Source: Chryseolinea lacunae
GTDB taxonomy: Bacteria > Bacteroidota > Bacteroidia > Cytophagales > Cyclobacteriaceae
Length of the DNA: 64,000 nt
Reading direction: 5' to 3'
Assembly: GCF_016735595.1 (NCBI RefSeq)
Contig: NZ_JAERRB010000006.1
Coordinates: 310,001-374,000, forward strand
The translations under genes were made by a program, and so were the position numbers. Below the pieces are notes generated by a model. The model had not been told where the DNA came from. It did no database searches and worked only from the letters and a program-made list of their open reading frames with translations. Shown here piece after piece: positions 54,776 to 59,524 of the stretch. Every line of letters starts with the position of its first letter. Positions within the stretch are counted from its first letter, which is position 1.

Positions 54776-55888
54776 ATGAGACCTGCAACCAGCATCCGAT
54801 TTTCAGCTAACCGAGCCGACTTTTTCTCGACGTTGAATCATCGTGTCAACGACTATTTCAAAAGCAACAACATCAGTCGCTATGCAAACGCCGAAATGAA
54901 ATTCAAGACGGTGTTCATGTATGTTCTCTTCTTCGCGCCCTACATCCTGCTGATGACACAAACCGTGACACAAGGGTGGGCCATGTGGCTGCTGACGTTG
55001 GTCATGGGCACAGGCGTTGCCGGCATCGGTCTTTCGGTGATGCACGACGCCAACCACGGGGCCTACTCCAACAAGAGCTGGGTGAACAACCTGATAGGCT
55101 ACTCGCTCAACGTGATGGGCGCTGGCGCATTCAACTGGAAAGTGCAACACAACGTACTTCACCATACCTACACCAACATTCACGACGTGGATGAAGACAT
55201 CAGCCCCCGCGGCATCCTGCGCATGTCGCCCCACGGCAACTGGAAAGCCATCCACAAATTTCAACATCTCTATGCGTGGTTCTTCTACGGCCTGATGACG
55301 TTCGTGTGGGTGATTCACAAAGATTTCGCACGCCTGATCCGCTATCAAAAAGACGGCATGGTGAAAAAACAAAAAGCCAACCTCGCGGCCGAGTGGGCCA
55401 TTCTCATTGCCACAAAACTTATCTATGTGGGCTACATCCTGGTGCTGCCCATGCTGGTGCTCGACATCACGTTTGGCCAGTGGTTCATCGGTTTCTTCTC
55501 CATGCACTATGTAGCCGGATTTATACTCGCCGTGATTTTTCAACCCGCACACGTCATCGACGGATCCGAGTATCCGCTTCCTGACGCGGAAGGCAAAATG
55601 GAAAATTCGTGGGCCATCCATCAGCTCCACACCACCACCAACTTTGCCAACAAGAGCCGCTGGTTCTCGTGGTATGTGGGTGGTTTGAATTTTCAGGTAG
55701 AACATCACCTTTTCCCCAACGTTTGCCACGTGCACTATCGCAAGATTTCGAGCATTGTGAAGCAGACCGCCGAAGAATTTGATTTGCCCTATAAGGCAGA
55801 GCCTACTTTTAGCGGCGCCCTGATGGGTCACGCCAAACTGCTGAAAGAACTGGGTAAGCGCCCGGCCATGCAGGTAGCCCAGGCGTGA
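54776..55888 (+). CDS. Acyl-CoA/acyl-lipid desaturase (front-end desaturase type)
   Basis: Product of 370 residues, four membrane helices, three histidine boxes: HDANHG, HNVLHH and the downstream QVEHHLF. The Q-x-x-H-H third box is typical of front-end (delta-5/delta-6) desaturases, here without the usual N-terminal cytochrome b5 domain. Introduces cis double bonds in fatty acids using O2 and two di-iron sites. The 248-base upstream gap holds a one-mismatch -7 element TACTTTTA near 54704-54711 and nothing else supportable. Confidence 0.9.
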   Translation: MRPATSIRFSANRADFFSTLNHRVNDYFKSNNISRYANAEMKFKTVFMYVLFFAPYILLMTQTVTQGWAMWLLTLVMGTGVAGIGLSVMHDANHGAYSNKSWVNNLIGYSLNVMGAGAFNWKVQHNVLHHTYTNIHDVDEDISPRGILRMSPHGNWKAIHKFQHLYAWFFYGLMTFVWVIHKDFARLIRYQKDGMVKKQKANLAAEWAILIATKLIYVGYILVLPMLVLDITFGQWFIGFFSMHYVAGFILAVIFQPAHVIDGSEYPLPDAEGKMENSWAIHQLHTTTNFANKSRWFSWYVGGLNFQVEHHLFPNVCHVHYRKISSIVKQTAEEFDLPYKAEPTFSGALMGHAKLLKELGKRPAMQVAQA

Positions 55889-55898
55889 TCTGAACAGT

Positions 55899-57830
55899 CT
55901 ATAGGAATCTCAATCCAATTTTTGCGCCCCACCACATCTTCAGGTTCATGTCGTTGCTGTAGGTGTGGTCGTAGATAAAGCTGGGCGTGTAGTTTGTGAA
56001 CAGCGTGGGGTATTCCTTGTAGGTAGTGTCGGTCAAGTAGCCGTTCAGCGTTATGCCAGCCACCAACGCCACTTTTTTTATCGGCTCCAGCTCCACGCCA
56101 ACAAAAACTTTGTTGATCATATTCACCTTCTCGAAGCTGTTGCCCTGCACAACCTGGTTGGCCGTTAAGTCAACATTCAAACTGATCCAGCGATTGAGGC
56201 GCGGGGCCGTGCCCACACCATAGCCAAACATCCACAGGGTTTTGTCGCCTTCGAAGGTGTCGGGCTTTGCGCCCGCCGTGAAGATGTTATAGAACCGGTG
56301 CACGCCCGTGCGAAAGGCCACGTTGGTATAAAAGATCTCATCGGCCGAGACTTCTATTTTGTGATAGCCCTTCAGCACAAAGCTGAAAAACCCAATGGGC
56401 ACACCCTTGATGCTGTCGGAAATGTTTATCAAGCCCACTTGTGTTCCCTGAATGCGCGTGGCATAGTTGAGCAGGCCCGACACTTGTGCGCCCTTCATGC
56501 GGGTAGCCGCCACGTTTATCATCCCCGATACCTGCGCTCCCTTTGTTTCGTGTGTTGCAAAATTCAGGATGCCGCTCAATTGCGCACCGTTCATTTTGCC
56601 CGCCGTGAAATTCAAAAGACCGGCAGCCTGCACGCCCTGAACATCCTGTGTTGCCAAATTAAAAAGTCCGGCAGCGTGCGGACCTTTCTGTTCTCCCAAT
56701 GTAAGGTTCCCCAACCCCGCCAGGTGCACCCCGCGCGACTGGTGGTGTGTGATGTTGAATAGCCCCGCGGCCGAAATTTTTCCCGACGAATTCCAGTCGG
56801 CGTTCACAAGACCCGCCAGCTGCACACCTTTCACACTGTCGCGCACCACGTTGAACAGCCCGCTCATTTGCCACCCCTTTGAATGCCCGCCCACAAGATT
56901 GAACATCCCGGCCATCTGCACCCCTTGCACGTCGCCGCGGTCGAGGTTGAACATGCCCGCCATTTCAAACTTGCGAACGCCCAGCGCATAGCCGCCAAAG
57001 ATGTTGAAGGAATAGTCGTTCACCACGTTGGCGCTCAGCTTGTGGTTTGTGCCGATGAAGGGCACCAGCGAGAGTTGTCGTTTGCGATAGAGTGTGTCGC
57101 GGATGTTGTCGGTGTTCACCGACTTGGGGGCGAGTATTTTTGTTTTCCAGAAACGCCTGATCTTTTCGCGCACGCTGTCGGCCAGTGTCAGAATTTTTTC
57201 TTCGTTGAAGCGGATCGGGATTTTCAGCAAACCGTTTTCGTCGGCGCCCACCGTCACGAGTGTGTCGGTATAGTTTAATTTGTTCACCGCCAGAATAACA
57301 TCGGCGGGCGGTTTGTCGATCTTGATTTCGAAGTAGCCATACGAATCCGTGACGGTAGACGACAGCGACACCGGGTCATAGACACTCACGTTCTTCAACC
57401 TTTCTCCGGTGGCTTCGTCTACAATATAGCCCGAATAGAGTTTGGGCTCTTTGCGCTGCGACGTAGTGGCTCTTGTTAGAATGATGTATTTGCCCTTGGT
57501 TTTATACTGCACCGTGCCCGCAAAAAGCTGATCCAGAATTTCGCGAACCGTTTTTTTCGTGAACGAGGCCGTCACCATTTTGCTGGCATTCACCAGGGCG
57601 GCGTTGTAGGAAAAAATGAAGTCGCCTTGTTTGGAGATTTTCCGCAGGGCCACGTCCAGCGGTTCGTTCTCGAAGGTGATGCTGATCACTTTTTCGAGCA
57701 GCGGCGGCGATTCGTCTTTGGCCTCCACCATGCCGGCGGCCACACAAAGCAAAAGCAGCCACACGCCACAAACCGCTCCGGAAATTCTAAGGCGCCACAC
57801 AACCCGTACCCTCCAGCACAATTTGTCCAC
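55899..57830 (-). CDS. STN domain + CarboxypepD_reg + LA_2272-like surface repeat protein
   Basis: 643 residues. Signal/anchor segment about 15-33, an STN (secretin/TonB N-terminus) domain about 45-118 (VISITFENEPLDVALRKISKQ, VTASFTKKTVREILDQLF), a CarboxypepD_reg domain about 131-215, then 11-13 repeats of 16-21 residues between about 283 and 485 of the type GVQLAGLFN, followed by a C-terminal barrel-like part (about 490-643). Repeats of this kind occur in the LA_2272 surface-repeat family. STN domains normally sit at the N-terminus of TonB receptors that signal to FecR. The start overlaps the 3' end of fecR by 44 bases; the next in-frame Met (residue 34) would lose the signal peptide. Confidence 0.85.
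   Translation of the reverse strand: MDKLCWRVRVVWRLRISGAVCGVWLLLLCVAAGMVEAKDESPPLLEKVISITFENEPLDVALRKISKQGDFIFSYNAALVNASKMVTASFTKKTVREILDQLFAGTVQYKTKGKYIILTRATTSQRKEPKLYSGYIVDEATGERLKNVSVYDPVSLSSTVTDSYGYFEIKIDKPPADVILAVNKLNYTDTLVTVGADENGLLKIPIRFNEEKILTLADSVREKIRRFWKTKILAPKSVNTDNIRDTLYRKRQLSLVPFIGTNHKLSANVVNDYSFNIFGGYALGVRKFEMAGMFNLDRGDVQGVQMAGMFNLVGGHSKGWQMSGLFNVVRDSVKGVQLAGLVNADWNSSGKISAAGLFNITHHQSRGVHLAGLGNLTLGEQKGPHAAGLFNLATQDVQGVQAAGLLNFTAGKMNGAQLSGILNFATHETKGAQVSGMINVAATRMKGAQVSGLLNYATRIQGTQVGLINISDSIKGVPIGFFSFVLKGYHKIEVSADEIFYTNVAFRTGVHRFYNIFTAGAKPDTFEGDKTLWMFGYGVGTAPRLNRWISLNVDLTANQVVQGNSFEKVNMINKVFVGVELEPIKKVALVAGITLNGYLTDTTYKEYPTLFTNYTPSFIYDHTYSNDMNLKMWWGAKIGLRFL
56376..56984 (-). 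repeat. Tandem short coding repeats in the STN protein
   Basis: These bases encode the 11-13 repeats (for example GVQMAGMFN, GWQMSGLFN, GAQLSGILN, GAQVSGMIN), each 16-21 residues with the pattern G-x-Q-[hydrophobic]-[AS]-G-[hydrophobic]2-N. Spacing is close to regular, as for a stacked beta repeat; the repeats are diverged at DNA level. Confidence 0.75.
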
Positions 57831-58797
57831 CCGAATCCGTTACGGTGAGGTTCAATGTTTCTTTCATTACCTCCACAATCTGTTCCAGGCTCTCGTTGTT
57901 AAACGAAACCGTGAGCCTGCACTTGGCCACGTTGCCACGCAACACTATCTTTTTGTCGTACACGTCGTTCAACGCTTCCACCACGCTTTTCAGATCGGTG
58001 TTGCTGAAGCTGAAGAATTTTGTTTTGTAGGACAACACGTTAGCTTCGGGCTGATCGATGGTGAAGGTTTTTGTCTTCTTATTGTAGATACCCTTGCCGT
58101 TGGCGCGCAGGTAAACACCCGAATCTTTTTCGGAATAGAACATCACTTCGCCTTGTTCCACCACCACCTCAATGATGTCGGAATCAGGATAGGCCTTCAC
58201 GTTAAACGCCGTGCCGATGTCGCGAATGAAGATGTCGGAAATCTGCACGAGGAACGTTTTGTTGTCTTCGTGCTGAATGTTGAAGTAAGCTTCTCCCTTC
58301 AGTTTCACCAGGTGCACTTTCTTCTTCTTGTCGTAGGAATAGGTGAGCTTGGTTTCGCGGTTCAGAAACACATCGCTGCCGTCGGGCAGGGTGTCGGCTT
58401 CGGTGGTTTTGTTGGTGGCCACCTCCAGCGGCGGCACCGTGGATGGATTGAGCATGCGGTAGGCAAACAGCCCCACGCCCAGAATCACCAGCACGCTGGC
58501 GGCGACGCGCCACGCCCGCGACATGAAGAATGGATTGGGTTGGGCGGAGAGGGTGCGCACCTTCGCGCCGTCTTTCATGGACGACTTCAGTTTTTTCCAG
58601 GCGGCGTCTGTGTCGTAGGTTTGAATTTCTTTTACGGCAGCCGCCTTCGTGAAAATGGTGCGAAGCTGGTCGAGGTATTTTTTGTTTTGCTCGTCAGCCT
58701 TCACCCACGACTCCACAAAGGCAGTCTCCTCTACACTGGCTTCTCCCGCCAGATATTTTCCAATCAGGTCGTCGATATGGTTCAGGTTCGTGCTCAA
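57787..58797 (-). CDS. FecR-family anti-sigma factor
   Basis: Product of 336 residues: cytoplasmic N-terminal domain about 1-90 (IDDLIGKYLAGEASVEETAFVESWV), a membrane helix about 95-113 (VAASVLVILGVGLFAYRML), then the periplasmic FecR domain with LPDGSDVFLNRETKLTY and FNIQHEDNKTFLVQISDIFIRDIGTAFNVKAYP, and the C-terminal DUF4974 (SFSNTDLKSVVEALNDVYDKKIVL). FecR receives the signal from an outer-membrane STN domain and controls the sigma factor encoded just upstream. Four bases separate it from the sigma gene. Confidence 0.93.
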   Translation of the reverse strand: MSTNLNHIDDLIGKYLAGEASVEETAFVESWVKADEQNKKYLDQLRTIFTKAAAVKEIQTYDTDAAWKKLKSSMKDGAKVRTLSAQPNPFFMSRAWRVAASVLVILGVGLFAYRMLNPSTVPPLEVATNKTTEADTLPDGSDVFLNRETKLTYSYDKKKKVHLVKLKGEAYFNIQHEDNKTFLVQISDIFIRDIGTAFNVKAYPDSDIIEVVVEQGEVMFYSEKDSGVYLRANGKGIYNKKTKTFTIDQPEANVLSYKTKFFSFSNTDLKSVVEALNDVYDKKIVLRGNVAKCRLTVSFNNESLEQIVEVMKETLNLTVTDSGGQIVLEGTGCVAP

Positions 58798-58801
58798 GGC
58801 C

Positions 58802-59380
58802 TTAGTTTAAAAATCCGTTCATCAGCACGATCAGCAACGGAAGGTAATCCTTCAGCTGTTCGCGCATAATTTTTAATGCTTTTCCCATTTGGTTTTCCAC
58901 CGTCTTGATCGATATGTTCAGCTGCTCGGCGATTTCGGCATACTTCAGTTCTTCGAAGCGGCTTAGCTTGAACACTAGCCGGCATTGTTCCGGCAGCTTG
59001 TCCATGGCGGTATATATTCTTGTTTCCAGTTCAGAAGCCATCACGGTGCGGGCCACCGATTCCACACTGCGGTCGGCCACGGCCAGTTCGAGGGCCACGT
59101 GTTGTTGTTTTATTTTTTCGTGCTTCAGCACATTGAGGCTGGCATTGCGCACCATGGCATAGAGATAGGGCCTCACGCCGGTGTGGATGGAAAGATCCTC
59201 GCGCTTTTCCCAAACATTCAGAAAGGTGGACTGAACAATCTCCTCAGCCTCGTCGCGGTCCTGGACGAAGGTGTGGGCGTAATTGCAGAGGGGTTGATAA
59301 AAAGTTCTAAATAACATCTCAAAGGCAGTTATATCTCCTGATTTCAGCGTTTCAACAAGCTGGTCTACCGATACTTCCAC
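58802..59380 (-). CDS. ECF RNA polymerase sigma-70 factor (Bacteroidota FecI-like)
   Basis: Product of 192 residues. Sigma-2 about 20-85 (FYQPLCNYAHTFVQDRDEAEEIVQSTFLNVWEKRE), sigma-4 about 125-175 (LPEQCRLVFKLSRFEELKYAEIAEQLNISIKTVENQMGKALKI). This is the Bacteroidota-expanded ECF group that always goes with a FecR. It starts the sigma-FecR-STN operon. No sigma-dependent promoter could be located with certainty in the 144-base gap upstream. Confidence 0.95.
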   Translation of the reverse strand: MEVSVDQLVETLKSGDITAFEMLFRTFYQPLCNYAHTFVQDRDEAEEIVQSTFLNVWEKREDLSIHTGVRPYLYAMVRNASLNVLKHEKIKQQHVALELAVADRSVESVARTVMASELETRIYTAMDKLPEQCRLVFKLSRFEELKYAEIAEQLNISIKTVENQMGKALKIMREQLKDYLPLLIVLMNGFLN

Positions 59381-59524
59381 TGCTTTTGGTTAAGTGTTAA
59401 CAGCGAAATTTACGGCTTTGCGGCTTTGGGGTTATGACAATCGGGAAAAGTTTTACCCCTATGGCTGAAAAAAGATTTATTCAGAAAGCTTTCCAGAGGG
59501 CATTTCAAACTGCAAATCGATGGC

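Follow-up and report, generated by a model that had tools for sequence, protein, structure and literature searches.

An operon on the minus strand of Chryseolinea lacunae contig NZ_JAERRB010000006.1 was analysed within a stretch of 64,000 nucleotides (nt) covering contig positions 310,001 to 374,000 (the window). It lies at window positions 55899-59380 and consists of genes for a FecI-type extracytoplasmic function (ECF) sigma factor, a FecR-type regulator and a protein of up to 643 amino acids (aa), in which an STN domain is joined to a CarboxypepD_reg-like domain and LA_2272-type repeats (STN-LA_2272 protein). FecI-FecR signalling is known mainly as receptor-based control of uptake. Sequence comparison suggests that the circuit described here is probably one of cell-surface signalling in which the LA_2272-repeat protein, and not a TonB-dependent receptor (TBDR), would serve as transducer, with the sigma factor driving a regulon of surface proteins. 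This receptor-free version was found in at least 60 of the 148 family genomes sampled (59 fetched loci with STN plus the window).

Composition of the operon and of the STN-LA_2272 protein

The sigma factor matched TIGR02985, a Bacteroidota type, with 179.8 bits (cut-off 126.4), and FecR matched PF04773 (52.1 bits) and FecR_C PF16344 (47.9 bits), each above its cut-off. In the 643-aa protein, the joining of STN to CarboxypepD_reg claimed in a preliminary description of this DNA was confirmed above the Pfam cut-offs for both PF07660 (30.2 bits; cut-off 28.4) and CarbopepD_reg_2 PF13715 (34.1 bits; cut-off 32.2). The protein also scored 46 bits with LA_2272_repeat NF047436 (cut-off 25). The same description had counted 11-13 repeats of the GVQLAGLFN (LA_2272-like) type; twelve G..N units were located at positions 292-466, with a step of 16 residues and a single step of 14. 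Over lags of 8 to 39, the self-identity of residues 271-490 peaked at lags 16 (34%) and 32 (33%) and was 2-10% at all others.

No Pfam match to Plug or TonB_dep_Rec, or to TonB_C or TolA, was obtained for this protein at E <= 1, and no TBDR was found in the 5.9 kb examined downstream of its gene. The next gene downstream (54776-55888) is on the opposite strand, convergent with the STN-LA_2272 gene. The layout of sigma, fecR and STN-repeat gene with no adjoining TBDR, as first read from the letters, was in this way borne out by the open reading frames (ORFs), the profile matches and the downstream sequence.

A signal-peptide-like start, recognized by eye, predicts export of the 643-aa protein. 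A C-terminal F or other hydrophobic residue is typical of outer-membrane proteins (OMPs) inserted by the Bam machinery, and the last residue was F in 48 of 75 STN proteins and in 21 of 34 STN-less ones; the 643-aa protein is probably located in the outer membrane. Its C-terminal domain and repeats are also conserved in the STN-less paralogues. As to a barrel or a solenoid, anchoring was possible for 26 of 73 proteins, in which the number of repeat units varied and was both odd and even; the unit may be a strand or a hairpin. In a low-confidence AlphaFold2 model, the STN region (residues 41-120, in blocks of ten) scored 39-78 and showed the order strand-helix-strand-helix-strand.

A profile of 26 STN domains matched PilQ secretin N domains at 3e-4, FecR-like anti-sigma factors at 0.06 and the PupA signalling domain at 0.12, and a profile of the FecR end matched the anti-sigma factor 4m0n at 1.8e-8 and PupR 6ovk at 0.0034. 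Alignment of the STN profile with the FecR C-terminal profile by hhalign gave 97.5%. STN domains are predicted to be where the signalling domain of FoxA and FoxR meet (PMC11637429); the relation between the STN and FecR_C profiles agrees with such a meeting, and an STN-FecR contact is predicted here. A cysteine pair in the C-terminal part of FecR (window 57787-58047) was present in 58 of 63 LA_2272-linked FecRs; the same pair occurs in several receptor-linked FecRs of the own genome and is not diagnostic.

The preliminary description gave an overlap of 44 bases between fecR and the STN gene, which follows from the longest ORF. The actual overlap is probably 14 nt, judging from a GTG that lies in frame for the STN gene 14 nt within the end of fecR. 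A start in frame at exactly this place was found in 21 of 63 loci (the window and L044-L105, with L044 duplicating L048), and in L048 it is the earliest possible start. The features are collected in Table 1.

Table 1. Positions of the operon's genes, protein domains and preceding element in the window
Feature	Position	Strand	Extent or start	Remarks
Promoter-like element TAGGGGTA-N13-TTGTC	59436..59461	minus	55 nt before sigma start codon	predicted target of this sigma (autoregulation)
FecI-type ECF sigma factor	58802..59380	minus	192 aa, GTG start	TIGR02985, Sigma70_r2, Sigma70 r4_2
fecR, membrane anti-sigma regulator	57787..58797	minus	336 aa, TTG start	PF04773 and PF16344 above cut-off
FecR C-terminal STN-like domain	57817..58014	minus	residues 262-327	PF16344; predicted contact site for STN
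STN-CarboxypepD_reg-LA_2272-repeat gene	55899..57830	minus	longest ORF 643 aa; likely start GTG at 57800	
STN domain	57471..57680	minus	residues 51-120	PF07660 at 72-120; FecR_C below cut-off at 51-117
CarboxypepD_reg-like domain	57192..57434	minus	residues 133-213	PF13715
Twelve LA_2272-type repeats	56421..56972	minus	approximately residues 287-470	NF047436, lag-16 self-identity
C-terminal domain	55902..56375	minus	residues 486-643	ends ...WWGAKIGLRFL, hydrophobic/aromatic

Conservation of the operon and the position behind fecR

Of the 148 family genomes, 78 had relatives of the STN-LA_2272 protein at E <= 1e-15; these include the window's own, and some of the matches lack STN. The two named relatives were Chryseolinea serpens (68% identity) and a Chryseolinea metagenome-assembled genome (59%). 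One locus each was fetched from 60 of the other 77 genomes, the 17 omitted being weaker or partial matches. All 60 loci had fecR directly upstream of the STN-LA_2272 gene, 58 had the sigma gene directly before fecR, and STN was detected in 59 with a profile built in this analysis. A second LA_2272 protein, STN-less, was encoded downstream in 19 of the 60.

A search of 395 genomes of the phylum gave matches to the profile at E <= 1e-20 in 97, often through nothing more than the STN part of ordinary receptors or through STN-less repeats. Twelve STN-LA_2272 loci from other families had fecR in 11 cases, sigma in 10 and a receptor in 5. The triplet of sigma, FecR and STN-repeat protein, for which other genomes were to be searched, is conserved across families. 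That the system is limited to the genus was ruled out by the 78 family genomes and by complete STN-LA_2272 proteins outside the family, within the class. LA_2272 proteins lacking STN, with no sigma or FecR neighbour in the fetched stretch, were encoded at eight more loci (five of family f24 and three of other families). In three of the f24 loci (L162-L164, of L160-L164), these genes are flanked by a peptidyl-prolyl-isomerase-like gene on one side and two small conserved genes on the other, named by eye.

Behind the STN-LA_2272 gene, 26 of the 60 family loci had a same-strand TBDR of more than 700 aa (about 780 aa). Six of these in-operon receptors were scanned with Pfam: CarboxypepD_reg was found in all six and Plug above the cut-off in four and slightly below it in two, and no STN was detected at E <= 0.001 in any of them. 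The claim that the circuit is receptor-free fits the sensor position; the system as a whole it does not fit, given the STN-less TBDRs at 26 of the 60 loci of the family and at 5 of the 12 from elsewhere, and an unlinked TBDR in the own genome that carries the element described below. Such STN-less TBDRs are likely an output of the circuit. In the 26-member clade that contains the window, a receptor was present in 10 of 15 operons of the sister branch and in none of 9 in the window's own branch, so that loss or unlinking of the receptor in the latter is the simpler reading. Among the loci read, no close relative had an adjoining receptor with the STN-repeat gene absent from the operon. Three operon receptors (L084:6626-9061, L090:2454-4916 and L105:2509-5055) have a long N-terminal stretch ahead of the signal peptide, their longest ORFs being 811-848 aa.

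FecR_C matches at E <= 0.01 identified 19 FecR genes in the window's genome. The gene following fecR was receptor-sized (867-1236 aa) in 15 cases, a short STN-type gene in 3 and neither in 1. An STN or FecR_C profile match was obtained for 17 of the 18 genes in this position, and in L181 an STN-like start was seen by eye only; L178 and L183 clearly matched only the STN profile built here, and L183 alone of the 15 receptor-sized proteins was scanned with Pfam as a receptor. Since the fecR genes of this genome normally precede STN-type genes, the STN-LA_2272 gene holds the transducer's place. This agrees with the earlier proposal that the STN-repeat protein is the sensor of the sigma-FecR circuit, as far as its position is concerned (17 of 19 fecR genes being followed by an STN- or FecR_C-matching gene).

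The three short STN-type proteins were of 643 aa (the window), 400 aa (L112) and 271 aa (L178). The second of these operons (L112:4578-5780; C1:62000-73000) also has sigma and FecR genes and no receptor beside them, and its 400-aa product scored above the Pfam cut-off for FecR_C and just below that for STN, with a weak OMP-barrel match. The third (L178:2073-2888; C11:123800-131000) is likewise a sigma-FecR operon with no receptor; the 271-aa protein matched the STN profile built here and no Pfam family at E 0.1. A tree built from 90 FecRs separated the LA_2272-linked ones from the others by 4 label changes, against a mean of 16.8 after shuffling (0 of 500 shuffles as low), which describes clustering and not a single clade.

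A promoter-like element and the genes behind it

When the sequences ahead of the sigma gene were aligned for 24 of the clade's 26 members, a single strongly conserved block emerged, TAGGGGTAA-n-TTGTC, with a TTTC-like second box in part of the sister branch. With a lenient pattern, the element was found before sigma in 23 of the 26 members; the 64-kb window contained one copy. Over 81 loci, [AG]GGGGTA-N13-TT[GT]TC gave 52 copies, compared with none for the reversed pattern and a mean of 0.4 for shuffled sequences. A looser pattern gave 63 copies (L044 and L045 both counted), of which 54 were at the starts of sigma (30), fecR (10), LA_2272 (9) and TBDR (5) genes, six before unclassified ORFs and three before nothing. 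The consensus over 47 sites, counted after two copies lacking a target had been dropped, was ATAGGGGTAA-n12-TTGTCnTA, with the boxes AGGGGTAA and TTGTC. Two boxes at a fixed spacing are what an ECF promoter would be expected to show. This element is what the present analysis adds; whether it has been published already is left aside, the literature search not having been aimed at its letters.

In the window's own genome, six exact copies of the consensus were found in a flexible-gap search (reversed control, 2). They precede this operon, two genes for DUF2807 proteins, a gene for a 794-aa receptor, one for an OMP-like protein, and a small ORF followed by a monooxygenase-like gene. The receptor is an STN-less CarboxypepD_reg-Plug protein followed by DUF4249, and the small OMP-like protein scored 27.9 bits, just below the OMP_b-brl cut-off of 28.7. 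The other 18 sigma-FecR loci of the genome had none of the six copies. Three extra sites with one mismatch were treated as noise, the nine matches in all standing against eight control matches. A 781-aa TBDR known from the relatives was also sought elsewhere in this genome; its best relative there (on C8, L111, 40% identity) has no element, and the element-linked TBDR is on C4.

Eight relatives had 35 exact copies against 6 control matches. Thirty of these, the loci returned, were read together with the six of the own genome. The genes behind the 36 copies were assigned by BLAST linkage, with Pfam checks for the own-genome members only, and comprised receptor (n = 10, two of them short), sigma (n = 8), DUF2807 with a lipoprotein-like start (n = 5), other DUF2807 (n = 5), OMP-like (n = 3), monooxygenase-like (n = 2), small ORF (n = 1), STN-less LA_2272 (n = 1) and cyclase-like (n = 1). 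Twenty-five of the 36 copies were 8-60 nt ahead of an ATG opening an ORF of 200 or more codons, compared with 336 of 4000 random positions under the same rule; when an in-frame stop was also required just before, the numbers were 18 of 36 and 37 of 4000. Twelve family genomes with no detected STN-LA_2272 relative had 1 copy, not at a gene start, against four control matches.

In eight further genomes (three of the family and five of other families), a slightly looser pattern gave 13 copies against 3 in the controls, 11 of them before sigma (3), fecR (2), LA_2272 (4), receptor (1) and OMP (1) genes, the OMP resembling by eye the one in the window's genome. Ten of the 13 are in operon loci already fetched and are not independent of the 63-copy count; of the other three, only the OMP gene is a sensible target.

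Two groups of small genes were also seen with the element. In L059, L063, L068 and L077, an exported barrel-like protein of 201-217 aa (by eye), encoded in the same region, has its own copy and gave no match to the 225-aa OMP family. In L190 and L199, the element precedes a small ORF of approximately 50-59 aa sharing a stretch ..EERL.KR..KS.. (by eye), and a monooxygenase-like gene follows in L190; one also follows in L219, at an equal distance.

The preliminary description had named the STN-repeat protein as the output of the operon. As the sole output this could not be upheld, the predicted output being a set of surface proteins: LA_2272 proteins, STN-less CarboxypepD_reg-Plug TonB receptors, DUF2807 (GIN-domain) proteins and small OMP-like proteins. 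A readable promoter-like signature together with a recurring set of surface proteins provides a first testable role for the LA_2272 repeats and for these DUF2807 proteins, and offers a prediction of the targets of Bacteroidota FecI-type sigma factors from sequence.

Mechanism, alternative readings and comparison with known systems

The STN-LA_2272 protein would be an exported, probably outer-membrane sensor, with its repeats or C-terminal part feeling a surface event such as a ligand or an altered outer-membrane state. The CarboxypepD_reg linker would relay this event to STN in the periplasm, where the domain may touch the STN-like C-terminal domain of FecR. By analogy with FecA, FoxA and PupB, FecR would then alter its hold on the FecI-type sigma, and the sigma would transcribe its own operon and the unlinked genes from promoters of the consensus form. 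A DUF2807 protein of Porphyromonas gingivalis is linked to attachment and biofilm in PMC10949514; because of this link, a surface-contact or envelope-state signal would suit the circuit, which is a guess. More tentatively, and with less confidence than the transducer role itself, the operon may represent a lineage-wide Bacteroidota circuit in which sensing has moved from the TonB receptor to a separate repeat-built outer-membrane protein. This protein would report how the cell surface stands or what occupies it, through a detached STN domain, to the anti-sigma factor in control of a surface-remodelling set, in a kind of signalling unrelated to nutrients.

Several findings weigh against the transducer reading. 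Two AlphaFold2 models, made with three sequences, were poor, with a mean pLDDT of 40.7 (whole protein) and 41.9 (residues 245-643), and Foldseek with the model of residues 245-643 returned no match at E <= 0.001. One STN-CarboxypepD_reg-LA_2272 gene (L157:5112-6875, G457) is an orphan, with no sigma or fecR within the 12 kb fetched. With the lenient pattern, the element was before sigma in only 26 of 71 loci and none was found there in 45; in the other loci it is often before fecR, LA_2272 or TBDR genes instead, and several of the 23 clade members have TTTC or TTTTC for TTGTC. The cyclase-like gene behind one of the 36 copies and the two of 13 copies with no sensible target fit poorly, as does the unlinked TBDR of G067 (63% identical), which has no element. 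Finally, a purely structural role of STN has to be considered, because the best PDB match of its profile was the secretin PilQ.

Three alternatives were considered. The strongest, still unlikely, is a split transducer, in which the STN-less TonB receptor is the true sensor and the STN-LA_2272 protein an obligatory partner supplying the STN domain. In its favour are the frequent in-operon receptors, the same element being carried by the own-genome receptor and by unlinked TBDRs in G093, G104, G140 and G015, and the TBDR of L183 (867 aa, same genome), which stands behind its own FecR with an STN-like start by the profile built here (Pfam STN only at E 0.088). On the other side, 34 of the 60 family loci have no same-strand TBDR in the fetched stretch (two of these have less than 1 kb downstream, one has a TBDR on the other strand and one only a 200-aa piece), and the element-linked TBDRs start with at least two different kinds of sequence, as judged by eye, which is odd for a fixed partner.

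Less probable is that the STN-LA_2272 protein is output only, a surface protein whose STN domain has a structural or assembly role, with FecR controlled otherwise. STN domains being building blocks of secretins as well, the PilQ match would fit, as would the STN-less LA_2272 paralogues behind the same element and the orphan gene of L157; against it stands the fecR gene directly before it in every family locus fetched, a place behind fecR that is held by a receptor-sized STN-type gene in 15 of 19 own-genome cases. The least probable is that the element is read by another regulator or is an RNA leader, the grouped genes not being this sigma's regulon: its attribution to the sigma rests on position and distribution and many loci lack it before sigma, but it is common where the circuit is present and almost lacking in the twelve genomes without it, is missing from the other 18 sigma-FecR loci of the own genome, and has two boxes at a fixed N13 spacing shortly before start codons. 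A circuit with the LA_2272-repeat protein as transducer is the reading preferred here.

Compared with FecIRA, FoxA-FoxR and PupB-PupR, the operon shares a FecI-type sigma next to a FecR with an STN-like C-terminal domain (FecR_C) and an adjoining gene for an STN-bearing, predicted-exported protein. It differs in that the STN partner has no plug or TonB receptor barrel, so that the transducer is not a TBDR, and in that the receptor, where present, is STN-less and output-like. The SusC systems of Bacteroidota with ECF sigma and anti-sigma factors also combine STN with CarboxypepD_reg (N-terminal extension, NTE) domains, and PMC7782687 states that the STN of such SusCs signals to anti-sigma factors and places the NTE before STN. 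Here STN comes before CarboxypepD_reg, and there is no SusC barrel or SusD.

The 16-residue GVQLAGLFN-type repeats are those of the LA_2272 family (NF047436), joined here to STN and CarboxypepD_reg, whereas for the VC2662 family (NF047437) the 643-aa protein scores 23.5 bits, far under the cut-off of 140. The literature search brought up no paper on an STN-LA_2272 protein; among the papers listed, the wording 'STN and carboxypeptidase regulatory-like' occurs in one (PMC12893687). The FecR/ECF pair LIC_12756/12757 of Leptospira, described in PMC12155086 as having no TonB receptor with an N-terminal extension, raises the same receptor-free question. PUMA3 of Pseudomonas aeruginosa (VreA-VreI-VreR) likewise has an STN component lacking a receptor beta-barrel; according to PMC2729926, VreA is small and bilobal, with a TolA/TonB-like C-terminal domain, whereas the protein described here, from another phylum, combines STN and CarboxypepD_reg with twelve LA_2272 repeats and a C-terminal OMP-like domain. 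Among the sources consulted, VreA is the one exception of this kind and the nearest precedent found for a receptor-free STN component.

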